A stretch of 34,546 nt of DNA. Origin: a virus. Below, piece by piece: positions 1 to 34,546 of this stretch; positions within the stretch are counted from its first letter, which is position 1, and each line of letters starts with the position of its first letter. The notes beneath the pieces were generated by a model. That model did not search any database and had not been told where the DNA came from. It saw only the letters and a list, made by a program, of their open reading frames with translations. The translations under genes were made by a program, and so were the position numbers. The stretch is from IMG/VR virus record IMGVR_UViG_3300027754_000255, positions 1-34,546 of that record; one strand, written 5' to 3'.

Positions 1-1583
1 TTGTAGGCAACAAAATCATGCGTGCTGTCCTGATTCGTCTTCATGTATGAAACCGCATTCGACGGGTCAGCAAGTTCTCCTGTTCGCGTTTGCCCTGATG
101 CAGTAAAGTTCCCAACGCAATAGATATTTCTGAAACGAGTTCCGCTACTTTGCCCAATGTCGTAAGCATTATCAAGAGATGGAAGAATGTCCCCACCAAC
201 AGTCAACGCCCCGCCAATCGTAGCGGCCAATCCCACAAAGAGTTTTTTGCTCACCGCCGCGCCACCTATGACTGTCAGAGTTCCGCCAGTAGTCGAGTTG
301 GTTGCATCAGTTCCGAGAGTCAGTCCAACTGTTGAAGAGAAGGTTTGCGCCGCGCTAAATGTCTGAATCATTTGTAGCCCCGCCAAAGTCGTTGCTCCAG
401 TGGCATTTGGGAGCGTGATTGTCTGCGAAGTCGTGGACGAGGATTCAAGGGTGGTAATGATTCCTGTTCCGTTCCCACTCGCGCCAAATCGCAGGCGTTT
501 TGAAGTGTCATTTCCGTCCTGCACATTGACATAGCCCGCGCCTTTTGGGCTGAGATGCAGACCAATATTTGTGTCTGCTCCTTGAGCGTAAATGTGGACA
601 GGTAAACTAGTTACGCTCGGCTCAATAGCGACATTATTGACGCTGGATGCGACTGGGAGGAGTTCAAGAATTATTTCGTTGGCGTACGAGTTTAAGTATC
701 GAACCAGTAATTCTTCCCCAATTTTAAGTTGACTATCGATGAATGACGCGCCGTTAGTGCCTATCACTTGAATGCTGTCTCCCACATAAAGCGTTTTCGC
801 CACCGCCATCCCACCTGCCGTTTTAAGCGGAGCGGTCGTGGAATTTGTTGCGTCAGTCGTGTCGCTAAACGCTCCCGTGGTGGGCGTAATCGCCCCCAAC
901 GCAATCGTAATCGCCGCGCTGGCGGTTGGGTTCGCCACTGTGCCAGAAACGCCGTTTGCGGTCGTCACGGCGACATTGGTAACTGTGCCCGTCCCCGCGG
1001 TGTCCGCCGCCCATCGCCCAACACCTGCGCCATCGGTTTTCAACACATAAGTATCCGTGCCGTTGTCCACTGGCATCGCAAAGGTTTTGTGGACTGTGAA
1101 TGTCTGTCCAGAGTCCACGATCAGCGTCCCACTCGCCGCCGTTGGCGTTGTCCCTTCAAGCGTGTAATCTGGCAGAATTGTGCAGGTAATCGCTGGCAAG
1201 GTGGCGATCAGATTGACTGTGTCCCTGATAGAAAACGCCGCGTAATTACTCACCGCAGTGACTGTCAATAGCCACTCTCGCAACTCGGTCGAGTCGAGGA
1301 GCAGGGTGAAGGTATAAACTGTTGTGGTGGTTGATCCTGTTTTTACCGCTGTGGTCGTCTGACAGAGGTAATCGCCTGCGGTGTCATTGATCGGTTTGAT
1401 ACCGCAAATCCACGCTGGGGAGGTCAGTTCGATGACCACCCCAGACCGCACAAATTGCACAGCGAATGCGATGGAGTCTGACTGCCCCAGCACCAGATTA
1501 GGTTGCAAGGCGATTCCCCCTGCGGCGGTGGTAAACCTAAGCAGGTCAAGGTCGTAGTACAGAGGGATGGTGATGGATGCCAT
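1..1583 (-). CDS. Tail fibre protein, branch variant (3' end runs off the window)
   Basis: The gene starts at ATG 1583 (MASITIPLYYDLDLLRF) and stays open to base 1, so the C-terminus is missing. About 527 residues are visible. The N-terminal third looks like a particle-attachment domain and the rest is low-complexity and rich in Thr, Ala and Gly. Fibre modules of the type TDATNSTT...GG.AV.K.LYVG occur at least twice, followed by DNAYDIGQSSGTRFRNIY, a motif typical of phage tail fibres. It directly follows the other tail genes and has a candidate promoter just upstream. Bases 506-632 are identical to 34420-34546, after which two different continuations exist: this one and the one ending at 33656. 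The role in host recognition is inferred from the modules and gene position. Confidence 0.8.
   Translation of the reverse strand, partial: MASITIPLYYDLDLLRFTTAAGGIALQPNLVLGQSDSIAFAVQFVRSGVVIELTSPAWICGIKPINDTAGDYLCQTTTAVKTGSTTTTVYTFTLLLDSTELREWLLTVTAVSNYAAFSIRDTVNLIATLPAITCTILPDYTLEGTTPTAASGTLIVDSGQTFTVHKTFAMPVDNGTDTYVLKTDGAGVGRWAADTAGTGTVTNVAVTTANGVSGTVANPTASAAITIALGAITPTTGAFSDTTDATNSTTAPLKTAGGMAVAKTLYVGDSIQVIGTNGASFIDSQLKIGEELLVRYLNSYANEIILELLPVASSVNNVAIEPSVTSLPVHIYAQGADTNIGLHLSPKGAGYVNVQDGNDTSKRLRFGASGNGTGIITTLESSSTTSQTITLPNATGATTLAGLQMIQTFSAAQTFSSTVGLTLGTDATNSTTGGTLTVIGGAAVSKKLFVGLAATIGGALTVGGDILPSLDNAYDIGQSSGTRFRNIYCVGNFTASGQTRTGELADPSNAVSYMKTNQDSTHDFVAY
506..632. repeat. 127-bp exact repeat, copy 1 (fibre gene branch point)
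   Basis: This 127-base stretch is identical to the last 127 bases of the window. On the lower-coordinate side the sequences remain similar (368-505 against 34282-34419) but carry many substitutions, and then an 18-base in-frame length difference. The exact length is what an assembler using k=127 would leave at a branching node. The same fibre reading frame runs through both copies. Confidence 0.95.
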
Positions 1584-9126: not shown

Positions 9127-10722
9127 CTAGCAGTCAAGAGGGACGATGTAAATTGGCAGGAAGTAAACCAACCCGACCTCTTCCGGGGTGGGGAATAGAC
9201 TCTCGAAAGTGGTGGTGGTCGAGGATGTGCATCCGCTGGTTTTCCCTCGCTCATACACCACCGAGTCCCACCCCTCCAGGGGAAATGCATTGTCAGGAGT
9301 CGAGGTGGTCTTGAGTGCCATCCGAATTCCCCACCAGATGCGGAGTGGATCGCGCTCCAGTTTCATCCCCGCAAAAAATTTGCGATCCGCTTCGGGAATC
9401 TCTCCCTTGATCGAGAACACCACCTCCACCGCCTCCGGGGTGGTGGCCGCCGCATACCACCCATCCCGCAGAGATAGCAGGTCGTGGGGTGGAGGTGGCG
9501 GCGTATCGGCGGTGTAATCGACTAGGAGGGAAATGGTGATTGTTGGGGTCATGTCGTTGGTTCGCCCCTCCCAAAATCCTTCGATCCCCTCTCGGCGATA
9601 CTCCCGCTCATACTCGTAGGTATCGAGGTTATTCAATCTCATCACCTGCATCATCAACTCGTTCCCGCGCCACCCATACCACCCGTTATTCTGACTCCAA
9701 TACATCCGCCGGGGGCGAGGGGTAGCCGCCATCAATCTGACCATCGCCAGTGCCCTTTCTGGGTCACTGTCGGTGATGGCGTAGCAGGTGAGTAGTGCGA
9801 GTGCCTCCCGGCGGTCTGGTTGGAGGGCGAATGCTTTGGCCGCGTACTCCTTGCAGTCTTCAGTGCCTAGACTTTGGGCGATATTCAGATTCATTTCGTA
9901 CCTCTCAACGAGTCCCAGTTCGGGGATCGCCGCCAGCCCCGCTTTGCAGAGTGCGATGGTTTCCTTCCTGCGCCCCGCCTCAAACGCCTCCTGCTGAAGG
10001 TAGAAATAATTCCTCCCACTACTCTCGTTTATCCCCCGCAGGATCGTCTCGTTCCGAGTTTTTCCACCCCGCTTGCTTTGGAGCGGGGAGTGGATGATTG
10101 CCGGGGTCATCGACGAGCGGTAGCGAGTGTCTGATGTGAATGCGAGTTGCTCGTGGATCGCGTGATTCCAGTGGGAGTTTACGCGCCTGTGAACGATCCG
10201 CTCCCGCATCACTTGTTGGTTAATTTTCCCGGCCACCACTCGTACATTGTACGGGAGGATGTGGAGGTCAACTTTGTCGCTCCGCTCATCCATCAGGTAG
10301 CGGATTTGGGCGAGGAAATCCGCGTCCACAGTGTCATCCGCGTCCGCCCACATCACCCACTCCAGATCAGGAAGATTGTCGTGAAAATATTGCCACCCCA
10401 CCTGCCGCGCCCCACCAAAATCGTCGATGTGCGGGTAATCAGCGCATCGAGCGGAGTTGCGATAGTGGAGGATGGTGAATGGGATACCCTGCGCCCCGCA
10501 GGCGGCGGTGATAAGACTCTCCGTAGCGTCGGGTGGAGTTGCGCCCGTGGCAATCGTGAAAACCATATGCTGACAACACCCGGCGAACGCGGTGATGAAT
10601 CGCTCGATCACCTCCTCCTCGTTCCCAACGATTACCGAGAGGCAAATCGAGGGAGGGGATGGTGGTATTGATTCGGTGGGAGGATCGTCGCTAGGTGGCA
10701 ATGTGGGCAAATCTGCGGTCAT
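9127..10722 (-). CDS. Family 2 glycosyltransferase with TPR-like repeats and an extra C-terminal domain
   Basis: The protein has 531 residues. A Pro-rich start (1-25) is followed by a GT-A domain (about 26-225): SVIVGNEEEVIERFI at the nucleotide-binding strand, FGGARQVGW, and WADADD (125-130) as the metal-binding DxD. Residues about 225-330 are helical repeats resembling TPRs (AGRRKETIALCKAGLAAIPE). Residues about 380-531 form a beta-rich domain of unknown family ending SLFPTPEEVG. It is placed among head-tail genes, so capsid or tail proteins are possible substrates. The sugar donor cannot be told from sequence. The GT call is firm and the substrate is inferred. Confidence 0.85.
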   Translation of the reverse strand: MTADLPTLPPSDDPPTESIPPSPPSICLSVIVGNEEEVIERFITAFAGCCQHMVFTIATGATPPDATESLITAACGAQGIPFTILHYRNSARCADYPHIDDFGGARQVGWQYFHDNLPDLEWVMWADADDTVDADFLAQIRYLMDERSDKVDLHILPYNVRVVAGKINQQVMRERIVHRRVNSHWNHAIHEQLAFTSDTRYRSSMTPAIIHSPLQSKRGGKTRNETILRGINESSGRNYFYLQQEAFEAGRRKETIALCKAGLAAIPELGLVERYEMNLNIAQSLGTEDCKEYAAKAFALQPDRREALALLTCYAITDSDPERALAMVRLMAATPRPRRMYWSQNNGWYGWRGNELMMQVMRLNNLDTYEYEREYRREGIEGFWEGRTNDMTPTITISLLVDYTADTPPPPPHDLLSLRDGWYAAATTPEAVEVVFSIKGEIPEADRKFFAGMKLERDPLRIWWGIRMALKTTSTPDNAFPLEGWDSVVYERGKTSGCTSSTTTTFESLFPTPEEVGLVYFLPIYIVPLDC

Positions 10723-10803: not shown

Positions 10804-10837
10804 ATAAAAAACCCCGCTCCCTTGTGAGGAGCGGGGT
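10804..10837 (-). terminator. Rho-independent terminator after gene 10851-11069
   Basis: A 10-bp stem (10811-10820 with 10828-10837) has a seven-base loop, followed on the minus strand by TTTTTTATT. The plus-strand loop CTTGTGA is shared with the hairpins at 11211-11235 and 11713-11737. Confidence 0.85.
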
Positions 10838-10850
10838 GGATTGGTTGATG

Positions 10851-11069
10851 TTATTGCCAGCCTGATACCACCTGTTTAGCTTCATCATCTTTCTTCATTT
10901 CCTTGAGTGCCTTCGCCGCGTCCTGTCTGCACTCAGTCCTGCTGGAGTAGTAGTTCCCGTCGATCAGAGTTCCTTGAAACTTGTGATCCACTGAGTAGCA
11001 CCCCTGCGAGTCCTTGTGAATTTTCATGTCGCTGGTTTTGTATCGGTTGGTTTGTTGGTTGTTGCTCAT
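10851..11069 (-). CDS. Small unknown protein of the post-capsid cluster
   Basis: The protein has 72 residues starting MSNNQQTNRYKTSDMKIHKD. It is charged, with two Cys and a helical C-terminal half (AAKALKEMKKDDEAKQVV). ATG 11069 is chosen because the promoter -10 lies six bases upstream and the N-terminal MSNNQQT matches that of the gene at 11758-12063. It is transcribed alone, between its own promoter and a strong terminator. The function is unknown. An autonomous unit in the head gene block resembles a phage moron. Confidence 0.65.
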   Translation of the reverse strand: MSNNQQTNRYKTSDMKIHKDSQGCYSVDHKFQGTLIDGNYYSSRTECRQDAAKALKEMKKDDEAKQVVSGWQ

Positions 11070-11210
11070 GGGTGAAGATTGCTCCACTTCTCGCCTCCCG
11101 TCAAGGATTTATTTTAAGAAATCTTTTACCGAGGAATTTCGCCCTCACTTAACTGCTTGCAATTGAGCGTCTTACGCCTACGAAACTTTTTTAACTTTCT
11201 CCAATAAAAA
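11051..11210 (-). repeat. Duplicated regulatory block, copy 1
   Basis: About 160 bases covering the first codons of the MSNNQQT gene, its promoter, an A/T-rich upstream element, a TTGAGCGT motif and the T-run of the preceding terminator. It aligns to 12046-12204 in the same order. The longest identical core (plus CCCGTCAAGG to ATCTTTTAC) is over 30 bases. Confidence 0.85.
11076..11104 (-). promoter_or_regulatory. Promoter P1 of the post-capsid cluster
   Basis: The minus strand reads TTGACG, 17 bases, CAATCT. An A/T-rich element (AAAAGATTTCTTAAAATAAA) precedes the -35 box, like an UP element. The -10 box is only six bases from ATG 11069, which predicts a leaderless mRNA. The -10 box itself is weak. 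Confidence 0.6.
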
Positions 11211-11235
11211 GCCCCATCCCTTGTGAGGATGGGGC
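11204..11235 (-). terminator. Terminator after gene 11251-11460
   Basis: A 9-bp stem (11211-11219 with 11227-11235) has the loop CTTGTGA on the plus strand. The minus strand continues with TTTTTATTGG. It separates the two-gene unit 11682-11251 from promoter P1. Confidence 0.82.
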
Positions 11236-11250
11236 GATTTACGAGCATGA

Positions 11251-11460
11251 TTATTGCGGGAGTGCTTTGCCGCGTCGGCGAGCGATGGCGAGGATGCGAA
11301 TCGCCATCGCCCGACGAGTTGCGGTGGGGATGCGGTGATCCTCGTAGAGGGCGAGGTCGTTGGCGGCGGTGATGGCGGTAAATGCTTTGCAGGGATCGCA
11401 GATCATCGTCTCTCGCTCCTTCTTGCCTCCGCATGGACAGGTTGTGGATTCGTAGCTCAT
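11251..11460 (-). CDS. Small Cys4 zinc-ribbon protein
   Basis: The protein has 69 residues beginning MSYESTTCPCGGKKERET. Four Cys in CPCG-x(9)-CDPC form a small zinc ribbon at residues 8-25, followed by a helical, Arg-rich tail. Three other genes in the window (22574, 24366, 25857) have the same CxCG...CxxC arrangement. It starts 12 bases after the stop of the gene at 11473, so the two are co-transcribed. It may bind nucleic acid or protein; the function is unknown. Confidence 0.65.
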   Translation of the reverse strand: MSYESTTCPCGGKKERETMICDPCKAFTAITAANDLALYEDHRIPTATRRAMAIRILAIARRRGKALPQ

Positions 11461-11472
11461 AGGGTCAGGAGT

Positions 11473-11682
11473 TTAGGAATGAAGGAGTGCCTGCGCCGCT
11501 TTGTTCCGCTCGCAGGAATCATCCGATTCCCGCGCGATTTTCAAAAGGGATTCCCGTGCGATAAACTCGCTCAGGGACGATGAGGTTGATTCGATCATCC
11601 CTTCAAATGCGAGGGTAAGCGTGTCGTCGCTTGTGAGGGTAGTCGATGTTCCGTTGATGGTTTTTACTGTGGTTGTTTTCAT
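11473..11682 (-). CDS. Small unknown protein (hairpin-leader cassette gene)
   Basis: The protein has 69 residues. The N-terminal half is Thr/Ser-rich (MKTTTVKTINGTSTTLTSDD) and the C-terminal half is helical and charged. The ATG at 11682 follows the leader AACCTAAAATCC that also precedes genes 30767 and 30436. There is no Shine-Dalgarno sequence. No family is recognised. Confidence 0.6.
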   Translation of the reverse strand: MKTTTVKTINGTSTTLTSDDTLTLAFEGMIESTSSSLSEFIARESLLKIARESDDSCERNKAAQALLHS

Positions 11683-11737
11683 AGGATTTTAGGTTGTTGG
11701 TTGCACCTCAAAACCCCGCCCCTTGTGAGGGCGGGGT
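11680..11737 (-). promoter_or_regulatory. Hairpin-leader cassette 1
   Basis: A 9-bp G/C hairpin (11713-11721 with 11729-11737, loop CTTGTGA on plus) is followed on the transcript by the leader AGGTGCAACCAACAACC and then AAAATCCTATG. The same unit lies before genes 30767 and 30436. Hairpin and ATG are only about 30 bases apart, too close for an ordinary promoter between them. It could act as partial terminator, attenuator or processing site. Confidence 0.7.
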
Positions 11738-11757
11738 GAGGGGTGAGAGATGGTGGG

Positions 11758-12063
11758 TTATTCTGTGAGTGTTTTAGCCTCGGATTCGTTGAGGAACTGG
11801 AAGCTGAGTCCCGCCGCTTCTAGCTTTGCGATGAGCTTAGGGGTTGGTGAATACATTGATGGAATCATCTCGCCTTCATGGGAGACCGATTCCAGTCGCT
11901 TGCTTCGGTCATTCCATTTGCATGGGACAATCTCCGTCCCGTTGTTGCCGCGAGTGAGAACCCGAAGCGTTTTGTTGTAGGCCAACCCTGTGGGTGATTT
12001 GATCGCAATGTAGCGGTCAGAGGTTAGGATTGATGTGGTGGTGGTTTGTTGGTTGTTGCTCAT
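11758..12063 (-). CDS. Small unknown protein, first gene of the post-capsid cluster
   Basis: The protein has 101 residues. The N-terminus MSNNQQTTTTSILTSDRYIA shares MSNNQQT with gene 10851-11069, though the remainder is unrelated. The rest is mixed alpha/beta (RVLTRGNNGTEIVPCKWND) and ends in a helix. The promoter -10 lies seven bases before the ATG. No homologous family is recognised. Together with its neighbours it forms an independently transcribed insert between capsid and connector genes. Confidence 0.65.
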   Translation of the reverse strand: MSNNQQTTTTSILTSDRYIAIKSPTGLAYNKTLRVLTRGNNGTEIVPCKWNDRSKRLESVSHEGEMIPSMYSPTPKLIAKLEAAGLSFQFLNESEAKTLTE

Positions 12064-12204
12064 GTGGAGGAATCTAGCGAGGATTTTAATCCCGTCAAGG
12101 ATTTATTTTAAGAAATCTTTTACAGACGATTTTCCACACCCCTTAACTCCCTGCAATTGAGCATCTTACGCCCACAAAACTTTTTTCAATTTTCCCAACA
12201 AAAA
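12046..12204 (-). repeat. Duplicated regulatory block, copy 2
   Basis: This is the partner of 11051-11210. It has the same order: MSNNQQT start codons, promoter, A/T-rich element, TTGAGCAT motif (12157-12164) and terminator T-run. The differences are concentrated in the spacer and the stretch between the motif and the A/T-rich element. Confidence 0.85.
12071..12098 (-). promoter_or_regulatory. Promoter P2 of the post-capsid cluster
   Basis: The minus strand reads TTGACG, 16 bases, TAGATT, preceded by AAAAGATTTCTTAAAATAAA. The -10 ends seven bases before ATG 12063, so the mRNA is predicted to be leaderless. This is the clearest member of the TTGACG promoter family in the window. Confidence 0.7.
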
Positions 12205-12229
12205 CCCCGCTACCTTTCGGTAGCGGGGT
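12200..12229 (-). terminator. Terminator after the major capsid gene
   Basis: An 11-bp stem (12204-12214 with 12219-12229) closes a four-base loop, GAAA on the transcript. TTTTTGTT follows on the minus strand. It ends the capsid transcript 33 bases after its stop codon. Confidence 0.88.
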
Positions 12230-15103: not shown

Positions 15104-16851
15104 TTCCCCTCCTTCTCTTTGTTGATTCTCGCCTCCACCTCGTTGAGTAACTGAGTGCGGGTTTTGTTCTCGTCGTAAATCGTGTAGGCGGCGGCAACTG
15201 CCTGATCGTGAGGGAGTTTGTCGAGCAGTAACCCAACGAGTTCGCGCAGGGTGGCGGCGCGCAATTCAGCAGGAGTCACCCCGGCGGCGAATTCGTTGAG
15301 TGTCGATGTCGCCTCTGCCGCGTCGGCAGGCGGTGGAACAGTGACTGAGGTAGACTCGGTAGCGGAGGTGGGTTTCGCCATCCCTGCACCGAAAACTTCC
15401 TCCACCGAAAACCCGGCGGCAAGTGCCTTGTCCCGCTTGATCTTCGCCCAGCGAACCATATCGTCCGCCACCTTCTCCGGGTCTTGCGCATCCTCACTCC
15501 AGTAGCTCATTGGGTTCAGTAATCCTGACTGGAACAGGTTGATGTTGCTGGATGATTCCTTGCCGATATCGGGTTGCGGATGGGGTCGATAAGACCACCG
15601 ACCACGGGTGATTCTGTTGGTGGTCGATACCGGGAAAATTCCCTTGCTGATCGCATCGATGAGGGCGGCGTTCTTCATGCGGTGGGCGAGGGGTTCTAAC
15701 ACCTTTTGCCCACGGGTGAATTCCGCTTTGGCCTGCTCGCTTTCCAACCTGCTACTCACTCCACCGAGTTGAGTTGCGTCCAGCCCAAAGGAGTAGGGGA
15801 GGTTGTAGCTCATGCAGGTCAATTTGAGCATCAGGGTGATGAGAAATTGCGTCTCGGGTGAGGGCGAGGAAGTGTCTGGGAACTTGATGTCCATTCCCTC
15901 GGTGAGGTGGTTGATCTGCCCATACTGAATGTCCTGAGCTTGACCACCTTGTTGATTCGCAAATTGAGTGGACGCATACCCATCCATCGCCCCGCTCCCC
16001 ACAGATGCGCCTGTGGAGTTGGTGAAGATGGTTAAAGCACTGGCGAGCTTCGCTTTGCCTTTCGAGAACTCCAGAATCTCATACAAATCCCGCAGTGCAG
16101 ACACCGCGGTATCGAGCTTGCTCACCCCTCGGTACGCATCAATTTGCATTGGATCGAGGTAGTGAACGAACTGATGAGCAGGGACATCAACCGGGTCAGT
16201 GTATTGCCCTGCCGCCATCCCCCGGCGGAATACCCGGTACGCTACTGGTTCACCATATTTTCCGAGGAGAATCCCGGCGATATAATCCTCGCTCACCACA
16301 TTTTGGTACACCCCACCGAGGCGATCACTCTCCACCGCCTGTAGCTTGAGCGGGAGTTTGACGAGGTCGTCAAAACTCATCCCCGCCTCACTCGTTGGGC
16401 GAACGAATGCCCACCCGTAATCTCCTCCCCTGTTCATCCCCAACACCCCGAATTCTAGCATCCTAAAGAAGTCGCATCGATTGCTCAGATCACAGTTTGG
16501 AAACCACTCGTTGTTGAGGTACTCCTCCACCTCAGTATCAAGGATGTGATCCCCGCTCTGCGAGTGATACGCCTGCGGGGTCACGAACATTGCGTACTTG
16601 CGGTTGAGCGTCTTAGCGGCGGCGAAATTGTTTTCGAGGTCAGTTGCTTCCCTCAATAATTGGAGGCGATCCCGCTGAACTTGATAGCTATTTGGGGCGA
16701 TTTGAGCGGGGGCGTTTGCCCGGCGATTCGTAAATGATGCCCCATCGTATTTGAACTTGTGGAGTGCCTCCCTCGCCTCTAATCGGCGGATGCCTGCGGT
16801 GGGTGATGCCCACCCGATTAGAGAGTCTAGCAGTGTCGATTTGGTCGCCAT
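15100..16851 (-). CDS. Portal protein (lambda gpB family)
   Basis: The protein has 583 residues. Features of the lambda-type portal family include RANAPAQIAPNSYQVQRDRL near the start, DTEVEEYLNNEWFPNCDLSN, QAVESDRLGG, VAYRVFRRG, VPAHQFVHYLDPMQIDAYRG and GVSRLESEQ-like text (GGVSSRLESEQAKAEF). The charged C-terminal tail is helical. It follows gpW and precedes the protease gene with a four-base overlap. A dodecameric ring at one capsid vertex, through which DNA is packaged, is the known role of the family. Confidence 0.92.
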   Translation of the reverse strand: MATKSTLLDSLIGWASPTAGIRRLEAREALHKFKYDGASFTNRRANAPAQIAPNSYQVQRDRLQLLREATDLENNFAAAKTLNRKYAMFVTPQAYHSQSGDHILDTEVEEYLNNEWFPNCDLSNRCDFFRMLEFGVLGMNRGGDYGWAFVRPTSEAGMSFDDLVKLPLKLQAVESDRLGGVYQNVVSEDYIAGILLGKYGEPVAYRVFRRGMAAGQYTDPVDVPAHQFVHYLDPMQIDAYRGVSKLDTAVSALRDLYEILEFSKGKAKLASALTIFTNSTGASVGSGAMDGYASTQFANQQGGQAQDIQYGQINHLTEGMDIKFPDTSSPSPETQFLITLMLKLTCMSYNLPYSFGLDATQLGGVSSRLESEQAKAEFTRGQKVLEPLAHRMKNAALIDAISKGIFPVSTTNRITRGRWSYRPHPQPDIGKESSSNINLFQSGLLNPMSYWSEDAQDPEKVADDMVRWAKIKRDKALAAGFSVEEVFGAGMAKPTSATESTSVTVPPPADAAEATSTLNEFAAGVTPAELRAATLRELVGLLLDKLPHDQAVAAAYTIYDENKTRTQLLNEVEARINKEKEGK

Positions 16852-16859
16852 ATATGTCG

Positions 16860-17126
16860 TTATTGGAATCCGCTACCCCGCCCAATTGAGGGGTTGAAAT
16901 TTGCTCGCACATTCATCGAGGTCGCCCCGCTCAATTTCGCGGCGGCGAAGTTCGCCTCTAGCAATAGTTGCTGTGCGTCGGCGATTGAGGGGAATCCGAA
17001 ACTCCTCCCGGCGATGGAGTAATTCACCCCGCGCACATTGTTCGCGAGGATGCAGGCGAGTGCCGCGCTCCGCACCGAGGTAAGTTCCGCACTGGTCAGA
17101 CCAACGAGAGTTCCTTTGACAGCCAT
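16860..17126 (-). CDS. Head-tail connector, gpW-like
   Basis: The product has 88 residues. It opens with a helix, LTSAELTSVRSAALACILAN, followed by a short beta hairpin (GVNYSIAGRSFGFPS) and a second helix (IADAQQLLLEANFAAAKL). This helix-hairpin-helix layout is that of gpW, and the gene lies exactly between terminase and portal, as lambda W does. It would plug the portal after packaging. Identification by layout and position, moderately strong. Confidence 0.75.
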   Translation of the reverse strand: MAVKGTLVGLTSAELTSVRSAALACILANNVRGVNYSIAGRSFGFPSIADAQQLLLEANFAAAKLSGATSMNVRANFNPSIGRGSGFQ

Positions 17127-17137
17127 AGACCATCATT

Positions 17138-19006
17138 CTAGCCAGACTCCTCCACCCCATCAAGTGGAGGGGGTTCGGTGGTTGCGTCACTTAAACTCTC
17201 TCCACTGAGGAGGATACCCCTTAGCCGGGGATCGAGGAGCGCACCCACAATCGTCATCTGATCGCAGTCCAGAAGATGGTTCGCTTTTTTGTGCGCCACC
17301 TTCCACCTCCACCGCTTGTTCCCGGCCTTGTCCACCTCCTGCCGCTTGAATTCCACCGAGGTCTGTTGCTGGTATTCGTTGCTCACATCCTGCGGGACAG
17401 TGAGGCGGTAACTGCTCATCCCTCCTCTCATTCGGTGGTACATATTTTTGATGGGTTCGTTGCACCAAAAATAGTAACGCGCCTGCCGAATCTGCCCTGA
17501 TTTTCCGAGTCCGCTGTGCCCAATGTTGACGCTCGAGAACGGGTATTTGCGAACCACCCGTTGCCCGTTAAAAAGTTCGTGGTGAGGGAAATCCCGGCGG
17601 TTCGTCGTGTCGCCCCATAGTCCCTGCCACCCATAGCGAACGCAGACTTCCTGCACGGCCTGAGTGTCGTAGGCGATATCGACCAGCACCCGAATCGGCT
17701 CAACTCCGAGTTGAATCCGCAACTCCTCCAACTCCTCCCAACTGACGATCCGCCCCTCATCAATCACCCGGCTTTCTGAGTGCCCAAATGCTCGGCAGAC
17801 ATACCACCTGTGCGCCCCCTCGCCTTTGGACGCGCGCCCCGCCTGATTGTCGATGCACAGGAATCGCCCCACCTCGCCATCGAATAAATCCCTTTTCAAG
17901 TACCCGCCTTTGATCCTCTCAAACTCCACCTGACTAGCATCATCACTCGGCGATTCGTCCCACGCGAGTGCCCTGCGCTTTTGGATGTAGTCGCGCAGGG
18001 GTTCGATTGATCCGCCTTTCGCCGCGCGGCTTGCCTTGATCTTTTCCATCAGGATGCTTCCCAAATCAAAATAATGGATGGCGGTTGCCTCCCAATGAAA
18101 GGATCGGTGATGCGCCGGGGCGGAAAGGTTTGTCCTGACGAATCGCCCCCTGAGTGCCTGCGAGCGTCGAGCAGACTCAGATGCGTCCCAGTCAGTTCCG
18201 CAGTGGAGGCAGTTGTATGTGACGAGAGGGAGAATCGCAGACCATAGCCACTCCCCCGACTCGGTGATCGTCTGTTCGTTCCGAGGAAATCTCAACCTAT
18301 CTTTGTCGTCGGTCATCCGCTGGAATTGGTTGCACGCCGGGCACGGCACTTCCCACTCTTCGCAACTCCCGCTGAGGAACGCGGTATCAGACTCGTCGCC
18401 CAACACGCTCCCCGTCGAGAGGGTGAGGATTTTGGAGTTCCTCACTCCCTCAACCCGTTTCTCAAATGCGCTCATTATCCCCGGTCGATACATATGGGGT
18501 TCGTCCATCGTCAGGTACTTCACCCGTTTGCTTTGGGCGTTAGAAAGGTTTGCGCCGACGCAGTAGAAACTCATCGAGGGAAGGACGATCTTCTGCACTC
18601 TCTGCTTGTGCCTGTCGTTGGGCATTTTGCGGTTTAGGAACTCGTTCTCCTTCAGCATCGGCGCGATCCGATCCTCCAACCAATCCGCCGCGTCGGGGTC
18701 ACTCTGCGCCACCATATAGTACATCCCGGCGTCGCACTCGATGCACCACGCCAGATGCATCTCGGCGATCAGAGATTTCGCCGATCCCGCCGATCCCCGC
18801 ACATCCACCCGGCGGATTGCCGGGTCACTCATCGCCCGGAGGGGTTCTAATAGCCACGGGGATTCCTCGGCGATATAGACGGGGTAGCGGGTCGAGGATG
18901 GGATGCGGAGCGCGCCGTTAAATCTATCCACGATAGTCCCCTCAAATTTCTCGGGGATTGCAGAGTCCCAGATTTTCGCCAACCACTCAATGTCGATGGC
19001 GTTCAT
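17138..19006 (-). CDS. Terminase large subunit (GpA type)
   Basis: The protein has 622 residues. Walker A is GSAGSAKS (71-78) and Walker B VKYLTMDE (162-169). A zinc ribbon follows with CPAC (222-225) and CLHC (266-269), as in many GpA-type terminases. The nuclease domain contains FLCIDNQAG (Asp386) and LVDIAYDT (Asp443 and Asp447). It packages DNA into the prohead using ATP and cuts at cos. The start at 19006 overlaps the stop of terS by four bases. Confidence 0.95.
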   Translation of the reverse strand: MNAIDIEWLAKIWDSAIPEKFEGTIVDRFNGALRIPSSTRYPVYIAEESPWLLEPLRAMSDPAIRRVDVRGSAGSAKSLIAEMHLAWCIECDAGMYYMVAQSDPDAADWLEDRIAPMLKENEFLNRKMPNDRHKQRVQKIVLPSMSFYCVGANLSNAQSKRVKYLTMDEPHMYRPGIMSAFEKRVEGVRNSKILTLSTGSVLGDESDTAFLSGSCEEWEVPCPACNQFQRMTDDKDRLRFPRNEQTITESGEWLWSAILPLVTYNCLHCGTDWDASESARRSQALRGRFVRTNLSAPAHHRSFHWEATAIHYFDLGSILMEKIKASRAAKGGSIEPLRDYIQKRRALAWDESPSDDASQVEFERIKGGYLKRDLFDGEVGRFLCIDNQAGRASKGEGAHRWYVCRAFGHSESRVIDEGRIVSWEELEELRIQLGVEPIRVLVDIAYDTQAVQEVCVRYGWQGLWGDTTNRRDFPHHELFNGQRVVRKYPFSSVNIGHSGLGKSGQIRQARYYFWCNEPIKNMYHRMRGGMSSYRLTVPQDVSNEYQQQTSVEFKRQEVDKAGNKRWRWKVAHKKANHLLDCDQMTIVGALLDPRLRGILLSGESLSDATTEPPPLDGVEESG

Positions 19007-19612: not shown

Positions 19613-20605
19613 TTACCTAGACTGGAGCAGTAGACTCAGTTGCGGATGCTTAATCTTGTCAGATTTGTTCAGGTTGTCTCGCACAAGCAGTGGTTGGAAG
19701 TTTTGCCAGTTGCAGGCGATCAGCAGTTGATTTCGGTCTGTCAGATCAAACTTTGATAGTGGGTAAATGTGATCTAGATGCCATGTTTTGCCATGATTTG
19801 CCCATGTCATTTTATTCGTAAACTGCCTTTCGATGTGCGCTCTAAAGGCGTTGGAAGTTGTTCCATACTTAAGATTAAATCGATTAGATTTTTTCTTCAT
19901 AAAGTGAACTGTTAACTTGCGAATAGCGTTCATCCTTTTTCTTTTAGGAGTTTCCCCTCGTTTTGATCGATAAATTTTACGAACTGCCTTAGGTCTTGCC
20001 ATCCTTAAGTCGAACAACTTAGAGAGATAAATCTCTGGTTGAATCCCCATCCTTCTCGCTCTTGCCCCTTGCATTTTAGTTAGTCCAATTCGAGTAACTC
20101 TTGATGCGTAACTGCCCCAATCTTCCCTTTTCTTCTTGATCGTTATTTCCTCAGTACGAACACCCTTCTTGATCTGATACTCTATCTGGCCTCTTGTGCA
20201 ATTGAGTTTGGTTGCTAACTCTTCAAGCGGATGAACCTGCTTAGGCTTGTACAATTTGAACCGACAAGTCCTCTCTGTGTCGTGAATCTGATCCTCCCGC
20301 ACTCCGAGTTGCTTTGCTAACTCGGATTTTTTCTTTTGGATTATGTTGGATGATCTGGATGCCCAACTAAGTCCCAGCATCCTTGAATCGTGCTTAACCA
20401 CTTGCTCAGTGCATCCCAAAATCTTAGCGGCGATCTTAATCGTTAAGGTTGCGTCTTGACTGGCAAACAAGGATCGCAATCCAATGTGCAGTTCCGCCTT
20501 TCTGTCTGATATACTACCCAGACGAAGACTCCTTTTATCGAAACTAAGCGTCTCGCCTTGCTCCTCAGCGCGCTCTGCCCATCGTCCCCTCACCGCCCCA
20601 TCCAA
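19613..20605 (-). CDS. HNH endonuclease with helix-turn-helix modules
   Basis: The product has 330 residues. Two or three helix-turn-helix-like units fill residues 40-180 (IKIAAKILGCTEQVVKHDSR; KSELAKQLGVREDQIHD; LATKLNCTRGQIEYQIKKGV). The HNH nuclease follows at about 270-320 with TWHLDHIYPLSKFD and LIACNWQNFQPL. Base composition is clearly richer in A/T than the flanking genes. The start overlaps the end of the glycosyltransferase gene by 16 bases. It may be a homing endonuclease or, as in some cos phages, an HNH protein helping terminase; composition and HTH modules favour the first. Confidence 0.85.
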   Translation of the reverse strand: MDGAVRGRWAERAEEQGETLSFDKRSLRLGSISDRKAELHIGLRSLFASQDATLTIKIAAKILGCTEQVVKHDSRMLGLSWASRSSNIIQKKKSELAKQLGVREDQIHDTERTCRFKLYKPKQVHPLEELATKLNCTRGQIEYQIKKGVRTEEITIKKKREDWGSYASRVTRIGLTKMQGARARRMGIQPEIYLSKLFDLRMARPKAVRKIYRSKRGETPKRKRMNAIRKLTVHFMKKKSNRFNLKYGTTSNAFRAHIERQFTNKMTWANHGKTWHLDHIYPLSKFDLTDRNQLLIACNWQNFQPLLVRDNLNKSDKIKHPQLSLLLQSR

Positions 20606-21363
20606 TCTATCCTGATTCCGAGTTGTTTCGCCTCCGCCGCGTCCCGCTCGTAAATCTCTCCTCGTCCCTGCACATACTCCTTGTACTCGTCGGTGGCGGT
20701 CTGACTGCCTCCGTCGAGGTGGAGTACCCTGCTACTCCCAGAGATTCCCCATCCTCGGTTGCAATCGAGGATAGTATCGAGGAGGTGGTTGTCCCCGAAC
20801 CACCATTTGAGAGTTGTCGGAAAATGGTAGTTGCTCTGCTCGACCCAACTCCCTCTGAGAAGGAACGCGAACCCGGCGCCTCCGCATTTGTCGCGGTCAC
20901 TGCTCCCATTCGATAGACACTCATAGGCATTCACCCGCCGCGACTCCTGCGGTCTGGAGTCGTAGGAGGGAGAGATGGCGGCGAAGAAGGTCAATGCTTC
21001 CATCTCCTCAATCATTGGGACGAGGGATTGGATGATCTGCACATCATTGTTGAGGATGAACACGAAATGCTCATCGAGCGTCCCGCTCGGTGAATTCTTC
21101 CTGATCATCCCCAGTCCCTGCTCCCACATAGCGTTGATACCGCAGTCCCCGTCACTCTCCACCACCTTCACCAACTCATTCCCGCCCAGCAGGTCGGTGA
21201 GCAGGGAGCGTTCGTCGGCGGTCGATCCATTGTCGATGAGGATGATGCGCCCAATCTGCTCTGGGGTGAGCCGGGCGAAATCGACGAGGAGTTCGGCGAC
21301 GAGTTGCATCGTCATTCTGATCTTTCCCCGAAAGGGGATGATCGCTGAGATTTTGTAGGTCAT
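20590..21363 (-). CDS. Family 2 glycosyltransferase
   Basis: The protein has 257 residues. The GT-A fold starts at once: KISAIIPFRGKIRMTMQL, IILIDNGSTADERS (donor-binding strand) and FILNNDVQII (101-110, DxD equivalent). Later GGAGFAFLLRGSWVE and WWFGDN fit the acceptor half of the family. It could glycosylate modified DNA bases, virion proteins or host envelope sugars; the sequence does not say which. It lies between the PD-(D/E)XK nuclease and the HNH gene. Confidence 0.85.
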   Translation of the reverse strand: MTYKISAIIPFRGKIRMTMQLVAELLVDFARLTPEQIGRIILIDNGSTADERSLLTDLLGGNELVKVVESDGDCGINAMWEQGLGMIRKNSPSGTLDEHFVFILNNDVQIIQSLVPMIEEMEALTFFAAISPSYDSRPQESRRVNAYECLSNGSSDRDKCGGAGFAFLLRGSWVEQSNYHFPTTLKWWFGDNHLLDTILDCNRGWGISGSSRVLHLDGGSQTATDEYKEYVQGRGEIYERDAAEAKQLGIRIDWMGR

Positions 21364-24975: not shown

Positions 24976-25225
24976 AGCCCATCTCCTTGTATTTTTCCTG
25001 CGTTGCGGCGAGGTGTTTTGCGCTTGCTTTGACTCGCCATTTCGTGCCCACTTTCATCACTCGATAGAGTTCGTTGATGGTCAATCCGTTGGCCTTCACC
25101 GCCTCCATCATCCACGGGGTTTTTTCAATCCGCTCGAGAATCATCTCGTACATTATCACCGCGTCCCGGCGGGTTTTGTAGACTCCGTCAAAGTGCAGGT
25201 AGGTTGGGTCGTTGGTGTTGCTCAT
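24962..25225 (-). CDS. Small unknown protein
   Basis: The protein has 87 residues and is basic. It starts MSNTNDPTYLHFDGVYKTRR, with helices RDAVIMYEMILERIEKT and NGLTINELYRVMK. The stop overlaps the RusA-like start by 14 bases, and the start overlaps the Mom-like gene by four. The helical, basic character and place in the recombination block suggest DNA contact. No family recognised. Confidence 0.6.
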   Translation of the reverse strand: MSNTNDPTYLHFDGVYKTRRDAVIMYEMILERIEKTPWMMEAVKANGLTINELYRVMKVGTKWRVKASAKHLAATQEKYKEMGYGVR

Positions 25226-25860
25226 AAAAGTTCAAGTTGGGTTTCTTCCTCAATCTCTAAGTTGATGCTGACATTGTCTGAAGTGATCTTTGGTTTAAGT
25301 CGGTATTCCCACCGAATTTTGTTGGCAAGACTCTGCTCCTTGCTTCGTTGTCGCGTGTTGGTTGTCCATGATGTGCCTTTGTTTTGCGCCGCAACTTTCC
25401 ACCCGCTTGCCCGATAAATCGTGCCAGCGTGGACATCGGTATCTTGATAGCTAATCAGCATCGTGATGTGTGGCATTTCCCTCGCAATTATCCTCCTCAT
25501 AATTCCAATCATCCTGCTCGCTAAGTTTTTTGGGGCGTTTTCACAGATTGCCATTCGACGCAGTTCCAGCGAGGTTTTGCCTTCCCTTAGTCGATTGGCT
25601 GCGATTGGGCTTGACCATATTGCCACCGCATAAGCGATACCATCGTACTCTGCTACATAGCAGACATAGTCCTGATTTCTCACCACATTTGACCAATCTA
25701 TCTTTGGGAATCGCGAGTGCCATAGTGCATTGAGTCCGCACGCGCGAACCACCTTGCATCGACGAATCTGAAGTTGGAGCGCAGAGGTAGGAGTTGCACC
25801 CCCTCGTCCGCTTCGGAAAAGCGGTATGCTGTCTGTTACATCATCTGCGCAAAAACTCAT
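25222..25860 (-). CDS. Mom-like GNAT-fold protein, candidate DNA modification enzyme
   Basis: The protein has 212 residues. The core runs YVAEYDGIAYAVAIWSS, LELRRMAI (98-105), ENAPKNLASRMIGIMRRII and SYQDTDVHAGTIYRASGW (137-154). This arrangement resembles the phage Mu Mom group, GNAT-fold proteins that hypermodify adenine, and related unstudied phage proteins. The N-terminal 30 residues and basic C-terminal tail look additional. It is richer in A/T than its neighbours. No companion methylase is seen. The fold call is good; base modification is an inference. Confidence 0.65.
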   Translation of the reverse strand: MSFCADDVTDSIPLFRSGRGGATPTSALQLQIRRCKVVRACGLNALWHSRFPKIDWSNVVRNQDYVCYVAEYDGIAYAVAIWSSPIAANRLREGKTSLELRRMAICENAPKNLASRMIGIMRRIIAREMPHITMLISYQDTDVHAGTIYRASGWKVAAQNKGTSWTTNTRQRSKEQSLANKIRWEYRLKPKITSDNVSINLEIEEETQLELL

Positions 25861-28516: not shown

Positions 28517-29104
28517 CTAGAATGGGATGTCGTCTTCCGCTTCGGTCGCGCTCCACGGGGCGGATTTTCCTTGAGAGTCGGCGATGGAATCCTGATCAAG
28601 GAGGTCTTCCAGCCCCGTCGAGGGAGTCGGGGTGGCGGTGGGCTTAGGGAGGATCGTCCTCGCCATTGGGGTCGCAGATTTCGCCGGGGTCGATGTTCTT
28701 GCTGGGGTCGAGAAATTCATCGCTGAATTGCCATCGTCGTCCGAGTCCCCACAGAGTCCCACCATCGCCTGCAGGCCACCCCGACGCGCGTAGGTGTAAC
28801 TGCTCATAATTCCGTGAGGATCGAGTTTGCCGGGTTGGATGTAGCATCGACCACTGATCCACTCCCCTGACGAGTGGAGGAGGATCGTCTCCACATAGTA
28901 CTGCCCTGCCTCGCAGGAGGGGAGTTGCACCACCGAGAGTCCATTGGTGTGCAGGAAATATTTGCACGCGTCCCAGAGGGATTCCAGATCAGCATATTTC
29001 GATTTAAAGTGCGGATTGGTGGATGACATCTGCGCTTTGCCCATCGCTCCCTGAGCGAGGGAGAGTGCTTTGGCGAGATTGGCGATTGATTCGGATTTGC
29101 TCAT
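28517..29104 (-). CDS. Erf-family single-strand annealing protein with SSB-like tail
   Basis: The product has 195 residues. The ERF core is SIANLAKALSLAQGAMGKA, then NPHFKSKYADLESLWDAC, NGLSVVQLP, LLHSSGEWI and SYTYARRGGLQAMVGL, up to about residue 120. A Thr, Pro and Ala-rich linker follows, and the protein ends AEDDIPF, almost the acidic tip of bacterial SSB (DDDIPF), which binds repair and replication partners. Erf proteins anneal single strands in phage recombination and end-joining. The tail suggests it could also contact SSB-binding host enzymes. Confidence 0.85.
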   Translation of the reverse strand: MSKSESIANLAKALSLAQGAMGKAQMSSTNPHFKSKYADLESLWDACKYFLHTNGLSVVQLPSCEAGQYYVETILLHSSGEWISGRCYIQPGKLDPHGIMSSYTYARRGGLQAMVGLCGDSDDDGNSAMNFSTPARTSTPAKSATPMARTILPKPTATPTPSTGLEDLLDQDSIADSQGKSAPWSATEAEDDIPF

Positions 29105-31174: not shown

Positions 31175-31792
31175 CATCTTTTTTCAATAAATCTTTAAAC
31201 CATCAGTTTTCTCCCTCGTAGAAATTCGCATAACTCCACTCAAATCAACCACTTACGAGGGGTGATCCCTATGCAAAAATAATTTGAAAAATCTTTTAAA
31301 AAGCGAATTTTTCCTCGGAATTTACGAGGTTTTTACCTGCAAATTTCTCCTTTGAGCGTAGTCGCTGACGCTCAAGGGTTTACTAAGATTTCTCCTCGGT
31401 AATATGCTGAGAATCAACGGGTTAACCTTGCTCGTAAACCACCTGCGATACGCCCCCCTATCATCCCCCCCAGAGGAATTTAATTAATTCCTCGGGGTAC
31501 TCGCCGCCATCAGGGGTAGTTCGCGTCCTAGCCACTGACCTTGAGGAGTTTGCAGGTCACCAAAATACCTGCTACCCCCCGAATTATCTCACTTATGTAG
31601 GAGGGAGAGGAGGAGGCGAAAAATCCCTTAAACGCCTCCCCCTCAAAGCGGGAGAACTGAGGGATGAACTGATCGAGCGGAACAACTCGCTAGACCACAT
31701 CCACTCCCCGTTTCTCCCACCCCCTTTCACCACAAAAGTTTCACTGATGGGATTTACTGACTCGCCCAAACTAGGTCATCCCGCGCGGCAAG
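31175..31792. other. 618-bp gene-free regulatory region between lysis and early genes
   Basis: No gene is supported here. It contains several inverted repeats: TTGAGCGT-N8-ACGCTCAA at 31352-31375 (extended by weaker pairs to 31349-31378), an 8-bp GAGGAATT hairpin extended by CCCC/GGGG across a bulge (31468-31497), and GGAGGCG/CGCCTCC at 31612-31639. On the minus strand a further A/T-rich AAAAGATTTTTCAAATTATTT lies near 31265-31290. A weak TTGACT-N17-TAGTTT lies at 31768-31796. Base composition is richer in A/T around 31180-31340. It may hold an origin, operators, or a small RNA. Confidence 0.6.
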
Positions 31793-32410
31793 TCAAACCG
31801 CAGGGATTAGCCTGTACCCCTGCGCCACAACACCGGGGTAAAAGGTGTAGCGGAATCTTTTGTCGTCAGTGCCCCCGGTCTTTGGGTCTGAGTTAATTCC
31901 AAAGAATTCAGCGAGCGCAATTGATCCCTCACCGAGCTTATCTTTCGGGCCGAAGTCTCCAACCACCGCATCACAACTCTTTGTTGTCCGTAGGTCATAG
32001 ACCACGCAGTGACACCCCAGAACCACCCCACGCGCCTCTGCTCGCCAGTGGCGAGGGAGGACGATGAATCGATCCACCGCCGCGTCAAGATATCGAGCGG
32101 GATCGGTAGCGAGTTTGCCGGGGTGAGTGTAGGATGTCGTGGAAATGTAGTAGCCGGGGGCGGGGTCGTCGGCGGTCTGTTTGATCGGGTTTCCCTGCTT
32201 ATCGACTACGATCCCCCACCAGTTTCCCGCTCCCCCGGCGTTGGCGAGGTAGTCGAGTGGTTGCGTCCCGTTTTTCCCATCCGCGTAAGCCGCGCGCCCA
32301 CTCCCATCGTGCCCATTCGCCCCGTCCGCATCGATCCGCATCCCTGCGGTGAATGTGTACCTCTGGACATTCGCGTCCATCGGTGGGAGTGGGATGGGAG
32401 GATTACTCAT
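31793..32410 (-). CDS. GH75-type (chitosanase-like) glycoside hydrolase, probable endolysin
   Basis: The product has 205 residues. The core reads DPAPGYYISTTSY, ARYLDAAVDRFIVLPR, GVVLGCHCVVYDL, CDAVVGDFGPKDKLGEGS and IALAEFFGINSDP. This is the GH75 pattern, with Asp152 (VGDFGP) and Glu161 (GEGS) at the positions known as catalytic in fungal GH75 chitosanases. There is no signal peptide. It ends a membrane protein, lipoprotein, hydrolase cassette and overlaps the lipoprotein gene by four bases, which fits an endolysin acting on cell wall glycan. Substrate inferred. Confidence 0.75.
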   Translation of the reverse strand: MSNPPIPLPPMDANVQRYTFTAGMRIDADGANGHDGSGRAAYADGKNGTQPLDYLANAGGAGNWWGIVVDKQGNPIKQTADDPAPGYYISTTSYTHPGKLATDPARYLDAAVDRFIVLPRHWRAEARGVVLGCHCVVYDLRTTKSCDAVVGDFGPKDKLGEGSIALAEFFGINSDPKTGGTDDKRFRYTFYPGVVAQGYRLIPAV

Positions 32411-32814
32411 TTGGGGAGTGCAACATATCCGTTGAGGAGTGCCGCCTGATTGATTGCCGAGGCGATAGCGTCTGCCACCTGCGCCTTCTGTTTGGAGTTG
32501 ATCGGTCTAGCAATCTGGTAAGCCGTGGAGGTAGCTACAGCGAGTTTTGGTAGATGATCAGCACTCCACGCATCGGCAATGCGTCTGATTGCTCCTGAGC
32601 TAACTGCAACACTCCCCTGCTCCCACATTCCCTTTGCCATCGCGTGCCCAAAATCCACTTTTTTATCTGTGGAAAACGATTGGATGGCGGCCTTGAAAAT
32701 TATCCCCCAAATCTCGTCGAGGATCGCTTTGGTGGTGTTGCTTTGCATCCACTCCATTGAGCAGGAGGAGAGGAGGAAAACGCAGGGTAGCAGGAGGAGT
32801 GTTTTTGGTTTCAT
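32407..32814 (-). CDS. Lipoprotein of the lysis cassette
   Basis: ATG 32814 overlaps the stop of the upstream membrane gene as ATGA and gives 135 residues. MKPKTLLLLPCVFLLSSC is a clear lipoprotein signal with lipobox LSSC at 15-18 and Ser at +2, which favours the outer membrane in Gram-negative bacteria. The mature part is helical and Ala-rich. It could be an outer membrane spanin-like component, though far longer than Rz1, or a host-surface modifier. Longer in-frame starts upstream are rejected because they remove the signal peptide from the N-terminus. Confidence 0.7.
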   Translation of the reverse strand: MKPKTLLLLPCVFLLSSCSMEWMQSNTTKAILDEIWGIIFKAAIQSFSTDKKVDFGHAMAKGMWEQGSVAVSSGAIRRIADAWSADHLPKLAVATSTAYQIARPINSKQKAQVADAIASAINQAALLNGYVALPK

Positions 32815-33014
32815 GGTGTTGGTTGGGTTGGAGTGGTGTTGTCGCGGATGACTCGCAGAAGCAGGGTCGCAATTGCCCCGGCAATGAACACCCGTTGCTT
32901 CCACTCGGGAGGGATGATTGTAGCCACCTCGCCGAGGGAGTAGGGAGCGGCGGCAAGGGCGGTGAGCAGACTCATTACAATTGATCCGTATCCCGCGAGG
33001 TTTTTCGTGTTCAT
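32811..33014 (-). CDS. Small membrane protein, holin candidate
   Basis: The protein has 67 residues. Two hydrophobic segments: YGSIVMSLLTALAAAPYSLG (about 9-28) and QRVFIAGAIATLLLRVI (about 40-56), with a short polar C-terminus. Size and topology fit a class II holin. It overlaps both neighbours by four bases and lies two genes before the lysin. Function from position and topology. Confidence 0.6.
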   Translation of the reverse strand: MNTKNLAGYGSIVMSLLTALAAAPYSLGEVATIIPPEWKQRVFIAGAIATLLLRVIRDNTTPTQPTP

Positions 33015-33328
33015 AATTCGTGGGAGTCACCGGGTTTCCGCTTCGGAAAATGACTCTCCGCTTTAGCCACCCGCATCCACTCCGCCGCCGCCTCCTCATC
33101 GCGCAATCGTTTGCGTTTCAACTCTTTTTGCGCCCCCCAAAAATTCCAAACCAGCACGATCAACCCGCTCACATACATAGTGGTCTGTAGCCACATATTC
33201 AACTCCGCGTGGACGAGCGGAGTTAGGATTCCGAGGGTCGTTACGCTCACATTCACTGTCACTCTCTGGTAAAATCCATCCCACTCGTTCGCGAAAAACC
33301 GCCCCATCGCTGGGAGTAAATCGTTCAT
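33011..33328 (-). CDS. Membrane protein of the lysis cassette
   Basis: ATG 33328 gives 105 residues, MNDLLPAMGRFFANEWDGFY. Two hydrophobic segments (VTVNVSVTTLGILTPLV; LQTTMYVSGLIVLVWNFWG) are followed by a highly charged helical tail (AQKELKRKRLRDEEAAAEWM). It may be a holin or inner membrane spanin-like protein. A TTG start nine bases earlier is less likely. It overlaps the next gene by four bases. Confidence 0.62.
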   Translation of the reverse strand: MNDLLPAMGRFFANEWDGFYQRVTVNVSVTTLGILTPLVHAELNMWLQTTMYVSGLIVLVWNFWGAQKELKRKRLRDEEAAAEWMRVAKAESHFPKRKPGDSHEL

Positions 33329-33337
33329 GGGCAACAA

Positions 33338-33652
33338 TCAAACTGGGGTCACAATCGGGGGCGTTGGGAAGAGCGCGTTAAACTCGGCGGGAGTCGTCAC
33401 ACTCACCCCGGCGAGCAGGTTAGCAACCGCCTGTGCCGCCGCAATTTGCGCGTCCAGTGTGCTTTGATCACTCACTCCTCTTCGCAAATATTTTGCCAGC
33501 ATTTCCACTCCATAATTCTCTGCGGTGACTGGGTTTGGGTTGCCGTCCACAACTGGATTCCACCCGCCTGAGCGAGCGAATAAAAGCGTGGCGGCGTCTC
33601 GCTGTTCCGTTGTGAGGAACGCGACATCAATGGTGATAGTGGTGGTACTCAT
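33338..33652 (-). CDS. Unknown protein downstream of the fibre gene
   Basis: The product has 104 residues, MSTTTITIDVAFLTTEQRDA, with DGNPNPVTAENYGVEMLAKY and a helical DAQIAAAQAVANLLAGV. It starts four bases after the fibre stop. Position suggests a fibre assembly chaperone or a virion tip component. No homologous family is recognised. Confidence 0.6.
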   Translation of the reverse strand: MSTTTITIDVAFLTTEQRDAATLLFARSGGWNPVVDGNPNPVTAENYGVEMLAKYLRRGVSDQSTLDAQIAAAQAVANLLAGVSVTTPAEFNALFPTPPIVTPV

Positions 33653-33655
33653 AAA

Positions 33656-34546
33656 TTATATGATGCAGGGGATGCGGTAAACCTGCCCCGTGGAGTCTGT
33701 GATGGTCAGGGTTGCGTTTGTGGTCGCGGCGAGGACACCCGGTGTTAGTCCTGTGGTCGCGGCGTTTCCGAGCTTTAACGCTTGCCCAGACGCAATTGTT
33801 ACGCCTCCATTTGCGGTCAATAATCCCGTAAGCGTTGTTGCCCCAGTCACCGCAAGAGTTCCACCCATTGCAATCGCCTTATTGCTCGTCACAGTCAGAG
33901 CAATATTTCCACCAGAATCCTTTAGTCCTCCACTCGGCGCCAACGCAATATAAGAGCAGTTCAATTCTGCCTTATAGCAATTAATGCTTGCAGGCGCTCC
34001 GTTAATTCCTCCGTAAAGTGCAGTAGTCCCATCAGCACCAAATGATCCGAAGGTAATCTGTCCCTGCCCACCTCCTCCATCAACTCCGTATAGCGTTGGT
34101 TGGGATGTTGTTGTGGTAGAGGTAAAAAATGTTACTCGATGCCCGTTGCTCAAGAAAAGCGTAGTCCCTACATAGAGTTTTTTAGCCACTGCCAAACCGC
34201 CGCTAATCATCACTGCGCCTGCGGAAGATGACGTTGCGTCAGTAGCAAGCGAAAAAGTGTTCGCCCCCGTAAACGCCTGCGTCATTTGCAGTCCCGCCAA
34301 AGTCGTTGCGGTTGTTGCATTTGGGAGCGTGATCGTCTGCGAGGTCGTGGACGAGGATTCAAGGGTGGTAATAATTCCTGTTCCGTTACCGCTCGCGCCG
34401 AACCGAAGGCGTTTTGAATTGTCATTTCCGTCCTGCACATTGACATAGCCCGCGCCTTTTGGGCTGAGATGCAGACCAATATTTGTGTCTGCTCCTTGAG
34501 CGTAAATGTGGACAGGTAAACTAGTTACGCTCGGCTCAATAGCGAC
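33656..34546 (-). CDS. Tail fibre protein, C-terminal part (5' end runs off the window)
   Basis: The frame is open at 34546 and ends at 33656, giving about 296 residues. The first third (VAIEPSVTSLPVHIYAQGAD) is identical in amino acids to the other copy. Then come TLPNATTATTLAGLQMTQAF, the repeat module LATDATSSSAGAVMISGGLA with VAKKLYVG, and a distinct end (GLTPGVLAATTNATLTITDS). It is the in-frame continuation of the fibre gene that starts at 1583 when the contig is circularised at the 127-bp repeat. The internal GTG at 34438 is not a real start. Confidence 0.8.
   Translation of the reverse strand, partial: VAIEPSVTSLPVHIYAQGADTNIGLHLSPKGAGYVNVQDGNDNSKRLRFGASGNGTGIITTLESSSTTSQTITLPNATTATTLAGLQMTQAFTGANTFSLATDATSSSAGAVMISGGLAVAKKLYVGTTLFLSNGHRVTFFTSTTTTSQPTLYGVDGGGGQGQITFGSFGADGTTALYGGINGAPASINCYKAELNCSYIALAPSGGLKDSGGNIALTVTSNKAIAMGGTLAVTGATTLTGLLTANGGVTIASGQALKLGNAATTGLTPGVLAATTNATLTITDSTGQVYRIPCII
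34420..34546. repeat. 127-bp exact repeat, copy 2 (contig end)
   Basis: The last 127 bases are identical to 506-632, and the first mismatch is at 34419 against 505. Joining 34546 to 633 gives an uninterrupted fibre reading frame from ATG 1583 to the stop at 33656. Confidence 0.95.

Follow-up and report, generated by a model that had tools for sequence, protein, structure and literature searches.

Organization of the fibre locus and topology of the assembly

The window, by which we mean the whole stretch of 34,546 nucleotides analysed, comes from a mixed environmental sample and is listed in IMG/VR as a virus; the genes that can be recognised in it are encoded on the minus strand. Parts of a tail fibre gene are found at both ends of the window (Table 1): the start codon and a constant stem lie close to the left end and are continued by two different distal parts, hereafter referred to as tip A and tip B.

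Table 1. Features of the fibre locus and associated genes, with positions on the window
Feature	Coordinates	Strand	Evidence or remarks
Tip A, distal part of the second fibre allele; no stop codon, cut off at base 1	1..505	-	Open frame to base 3
Graph junction, repeat copy 1	506..632	-	127-base exact repeat; fibre coding sequence
Start codon of the fibre gene and constant stem (residues 1-317), common to both versions	633..1583	-	ORF 3-1583
ERF-family single-strand-annealing recombinase gene	28517..29104	-	Pfam PF04404, E=1.4e-17
Gene directly after the fibre gene	33338..33652	-	Homologue at 77-80% identity adjoins the fibre gene in G002-G006
Tip B, distal fibre part on the closed circle; terminated by a stop codon	33656..34419	-	ORF 33656-34546
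Graph junction, repeat copy 2	34420..34546	-	127-base exact repeat at the contig end; coding sequence same as 506..632

The two junction copies had been reported as identical in a preliminary description of this DNA, and the match is indeed exact and maximal at 127 bases (the flanking base is G at 505 and T at 34419). In a k-mer test of the whole window at k=127, a single k-mer was repeated; it constituted the sole branching node, preceded by two k-mers and followed by one, as is characteristic of a node in a de Bruijn graph at this k value. In this graph, positions 633-34546 close into a circle of 33,914 bp, which is entered by one additional branch (1-505), supporting the lasso shape proposed earlier for this assembly.

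In a published JGI command for metaSPAdes, the k values are given as -k 33,55,77,99,127 (PMC11256825), and 127-bp overlaps at the ends of SPAdes contigs have been called artefacts (PMC5923482) and have also served to indicate a circular map (PMC8104045). As the repeat has the length of the largest k in published JGI metaSPAdes assemblies and of these published artefacts, its length is an assembler parameter rather than that of a biological repeat; we infer the assembler and k used for this sample from this length and from other JGI work. The junction resembles the published cases in its exactly 127 identical bases, derived from the overlap in a de Bruijn graph. However, the two ends of circular SPAdes contigs usually match each other, whereas here the attachment of the branch in front leaves the end of the window matching an internal site. 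The stretch over which the two alleles are identical is at least 127 bases long, with no fixed upper limit, because the stem side is merged.

A common stem with two distal parts

As previously described, one upstream sequence leads into two downstream continuations, and both reading frames stay open. The version with tip B runs across the join (1583 to 633, then 34546 to 33656) as an open frame of 613 aa followed by a stop codon, in agreement with the suggestion that the fibre frame is continuous from 633 to 34546. The version with tip A is open for 527 aa and runs to base 3, where it is truncated. Over the 140 nt next to the repeat, the two tips are 87% identical; of the first 14 codons that differ, 12 encode the same amino acid. 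Such a preponderance of silent differences suggests two coding alleles subject to purifying selection and makes sequencing noise an unlikely source. This similar part is followed by an 18-nt in-frame indel. The preliminary description had correctly noted both the similarity and the indel, but it placed complete divergence from the indel onwards; at the protein level, a short module (TDATxS...GG.AV.KKL.VG) still aligns past this point, to residue 451 in A and residue 444 in B, and the tips are unrelated only beyond these residues. The sole relative of positions 1-632 within the window record is the 34251-34546 allele, and exact 30-mers from tip A and from the junction were not found among the searchable IMG/VR records, which may leave out near-identical ones.

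The fibre protein of the window had no Pfam match and no significant PHROG match. Three homologues with tips other than those of the window matched, in these tips, phrog_4636, a tail spike family of PHROG (E 7e-9 to 8e-14). A PDB profile search with five fibres gave no match, and an AlphaFold2 model of tip B, obtained without an alignment, consisted mostly of short strands, with a pLDDT of 41, and was not usable. A comparison with cultured phages yielded neither a protein match to the fibre nor a DNA match to the head region, and relatives of the portal protein were found only at 21-24% identity; no relative of the terminase was found in bacterial genomes. The position of the tips, the homologues matching phrog_4636 and precedent suggest a role in host recognition, the tips being probably receptor-binding.

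The fibre locus in related phages

Scanning IMG/VR with the fibre protein identified five contigs, and scanning with tip A identified a sixth (G006); the contigs were read in their entirety. A complete fibre gene was present in five relatives (G002, G003, G004, G005 and G006), each of which has one fibre gene with one tip. G001 is a fragment 99.9% identical to G002 but from another metagenome, and it ends inside the fibre tip. The stem of the window fibre is 90% identical to L007 over residues 1-197, and identity to L003/L004 is 75% over residues 1-493.

In every relative reaching that far, the fibre gene is followed by a homologue of the next gene on the window circle (33338-33652), and the order of tail genes, fibre gene and this homologue is the same as on the circle. 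A homologue of 32407-33099 then comes next in G002, G004 and G006. The conserved adjacency of the fibre gene and the 33338-33652 homologue provides assembler-independent support for closing the circle at the repeat. The length of the circle is close to that of relatives (33,677 bp and, for G006, 34,484 bp).

G006 carries a complete type-A tip, with a stop codon, at the position occupied by tip B on the window circle and with the same next gene. This tip shares the DILPSLDNAYDIGQ and QDSTH motifs with tip A of the window and runs about 120 residues past the point at which the latter is cut off; the stem and tip A arrangement is 69% identical to that of G006 over 524 residues. The end of the G002 fibre is 78% identical to the last 60 residues of tip B, with a different middle part.

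Sharp replacements within the fibre gene were found between relatives. G002 and G006 are largely alignable, at 77-96% identity, but have no nucleotide match in the fibre parts 16564-16784 and 17087-17847, with the alignment resuming at 17847, with the next gene. Likewise, the structural genes of G003 and G005 align at 92-94% identity, except for an unrelated block of about 460 bp within the fibre gene. A conserved stem with a replaced distal part thus occurs at one locus among the relatives, as expected for allelic tip variation, and the presence of differing tips and inner blocks at this single locus indicates that tips and inner modules are exchanged there. In the comparison of L020 with L021, phages otherwise 92-94% identical, a sharply bounded block lies in the middle of the fibre gene, at 17060-17522 of L020.

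Other features of the window

Downstream of the major head protein gene, in the direction of transcription, the region 10807-12228 contains small genes separated by four similar hairpins (CCCCGC..CCTTGTGAGG..GCGGGG type). Together with a direct repeat of 127 nt (11096 and 12090), whose copies are only 83% identical and which is unrelated to the junction, these hairpins look like duplicated terminators. A glycosyltransferase-like gene (9127-10722; phrog_13126, E=4e-15) lies inside the head-tail block and is found in four relatives, at 37-39% identity, and a second glycosyltransferase-like gene (20590-21363) gave a weak match (E=0.004). A Mom-like DNA modification protein is encoded at 25222-25860 (Pfam Mom, E=1.5e-15), suggesting that the phage DNA may be modified. 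The 26478-27077 gene encodes a single protein with a DUF3310 domain and a C-terminal Sel1-like repeat, and a perfect 26-nt direct repeat (26346 and 26478) is located at and beyond the end of this gene. Close after the fibre gene, 31793-32410 gave a weak GH75 chitosanase-like match (E=3e-4, below Pfam's cut-off), and its product is perhaps a lysis or wall-degrading enzyme. The region at 31178-31792, of about 600 bases, has no ORF of 60 codons on either strand; the rest of the genome is dense. No tRNAs or structured RNAs were found in the window.

Origin of the two tips

The window very probably combines, in one assembly, two coexisting strains with alternative fibre tips at the same locus, exchanged by recombination. 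The possibility that two strains with different tips coexist had been raised in the preliminary description, and it is supported by the presence of one tip in each of the relatives and by the occurrence of type A as the sole tip in G006; for this sample, coexistence is suggested by the branch in a single assembly. Positions 633-34546 would then correspond to the circular-mapping genome (circularly permuted or terminally redundant) of a tailed phage of about 33.9 kb, closed through the 127-mer, and the first 505 bases would be a branch contributed by a sister strain occurring alongside it, with the same fibre stem and a different tip at the same locus. Homologous recombination within the conserved modules of the stem, during co-infection, would be the most likely route by which the tips were exchanged; the ERF-type protein is a plausible helper of such mosaic recombination, and the variety of tips would most likely be maintained by selection for host recognition.

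The graph topology alone would fit just as well a single genome in which the assembler collapsed two fibre genes, or one fibre gene and a further partial tip cassette with the same 127 bases. Such paralogues are improbable, given that all the relatives spanning the locus have a single fibre gene with one tip and the next gene directly after it, and that the circle closes at the expected genome length without another cassette. A chimeric join, in which tip A came from an unrelated phage that happened to share 127 bases or the branch was an assembly error, has a slightly smaller chance still of being correct: identity is guaranteed for these 127 bases only, but the reading frame is uninterrupted at the join, A closely resembles B next to the stem, and the stem and tip A arrangement recurs in G006. 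No more credible than such a join is a single lineage that keeps and alternates two tips in a manner invisible in the assembled circle, for example if a second, short cassette had been collapsed during assembly.

Programmed switching of the tip within one phage, by DNA inversion or a diversity-generating retroelement, appears to be the least probable explanation of all. An inversion like those of Mu and P1 would yield two tips on one stem. An invertible cassette keeps the alternative tip in the genome, in the opposite orientation, and the absence of such a tip here counts against this type of cassette. Inverted repeats of at least 18 nt were not found around the fibre gene, and the window as a whole has no inverted 25-mers; the main ORFs scanned included none encoding an invertase, integrase or reverse transcriptase, and the circle yielded no further copy of tip A and no second tip cassette. 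The Mu/P1-type combination of an invertase with inverted repeats flanking the tips was therefore not found. Neither was that of a reverse transcriptase with a template repeat and adenine-directed changes, typical of diversity-generating retroelements: no reverse transcriptase was present in the scanned ORFs, and the differences between the tips, which consist of entire modules plus largely silent substitutions close to the join, are not of the adenine-directed kind. With a single gene and a single tip in five relatives, these results do not support the suggestion that one phage switches between the two tips or carries both.

In marine viromes, the C-terminal regions of tail fibres under-recruit (Mizuno 2014, PMC3909814), and there is precedent for co-present tail-fibre variants at which assemblies break (Bellas 2020, PMC7468147; PMC3909814). 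The coexistence of two strains would fit this pattern of metaviromic islands, which also have a conserved N-terminal part and a variable C-terminal fibre tip (PMC3909814, PMC7468147). Such islands have, likewise, several variants present in one sample, and assemblies break at these sites; co-presence in the window is deduced from one branch, and the window differs in that the second variant was caught on the end of one contig. The exchange of distal fibre parts in T-even phages (Tetart 1998, as cited in PMC7468147) would be similar in that adhesin tips are recombined via conserved segments of the fibre locus. However, no sequence relationship was found between the fibre of the window and the T-even fibres, and it is the comparison of relatives that points to recombination in this case.

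Fibre-tip exchange between coexisting phages is already well described, and the window most likely corresponds to the common situation of a mixed assembly, not to a switch. It provides a clear example of the way in which fibre-tip strain variation appears in metagenomic phage contigs, and it identifies 633-34546 as the likely true circular genome; the truncated alternative allele would otherwise be annotated within one linear genome.
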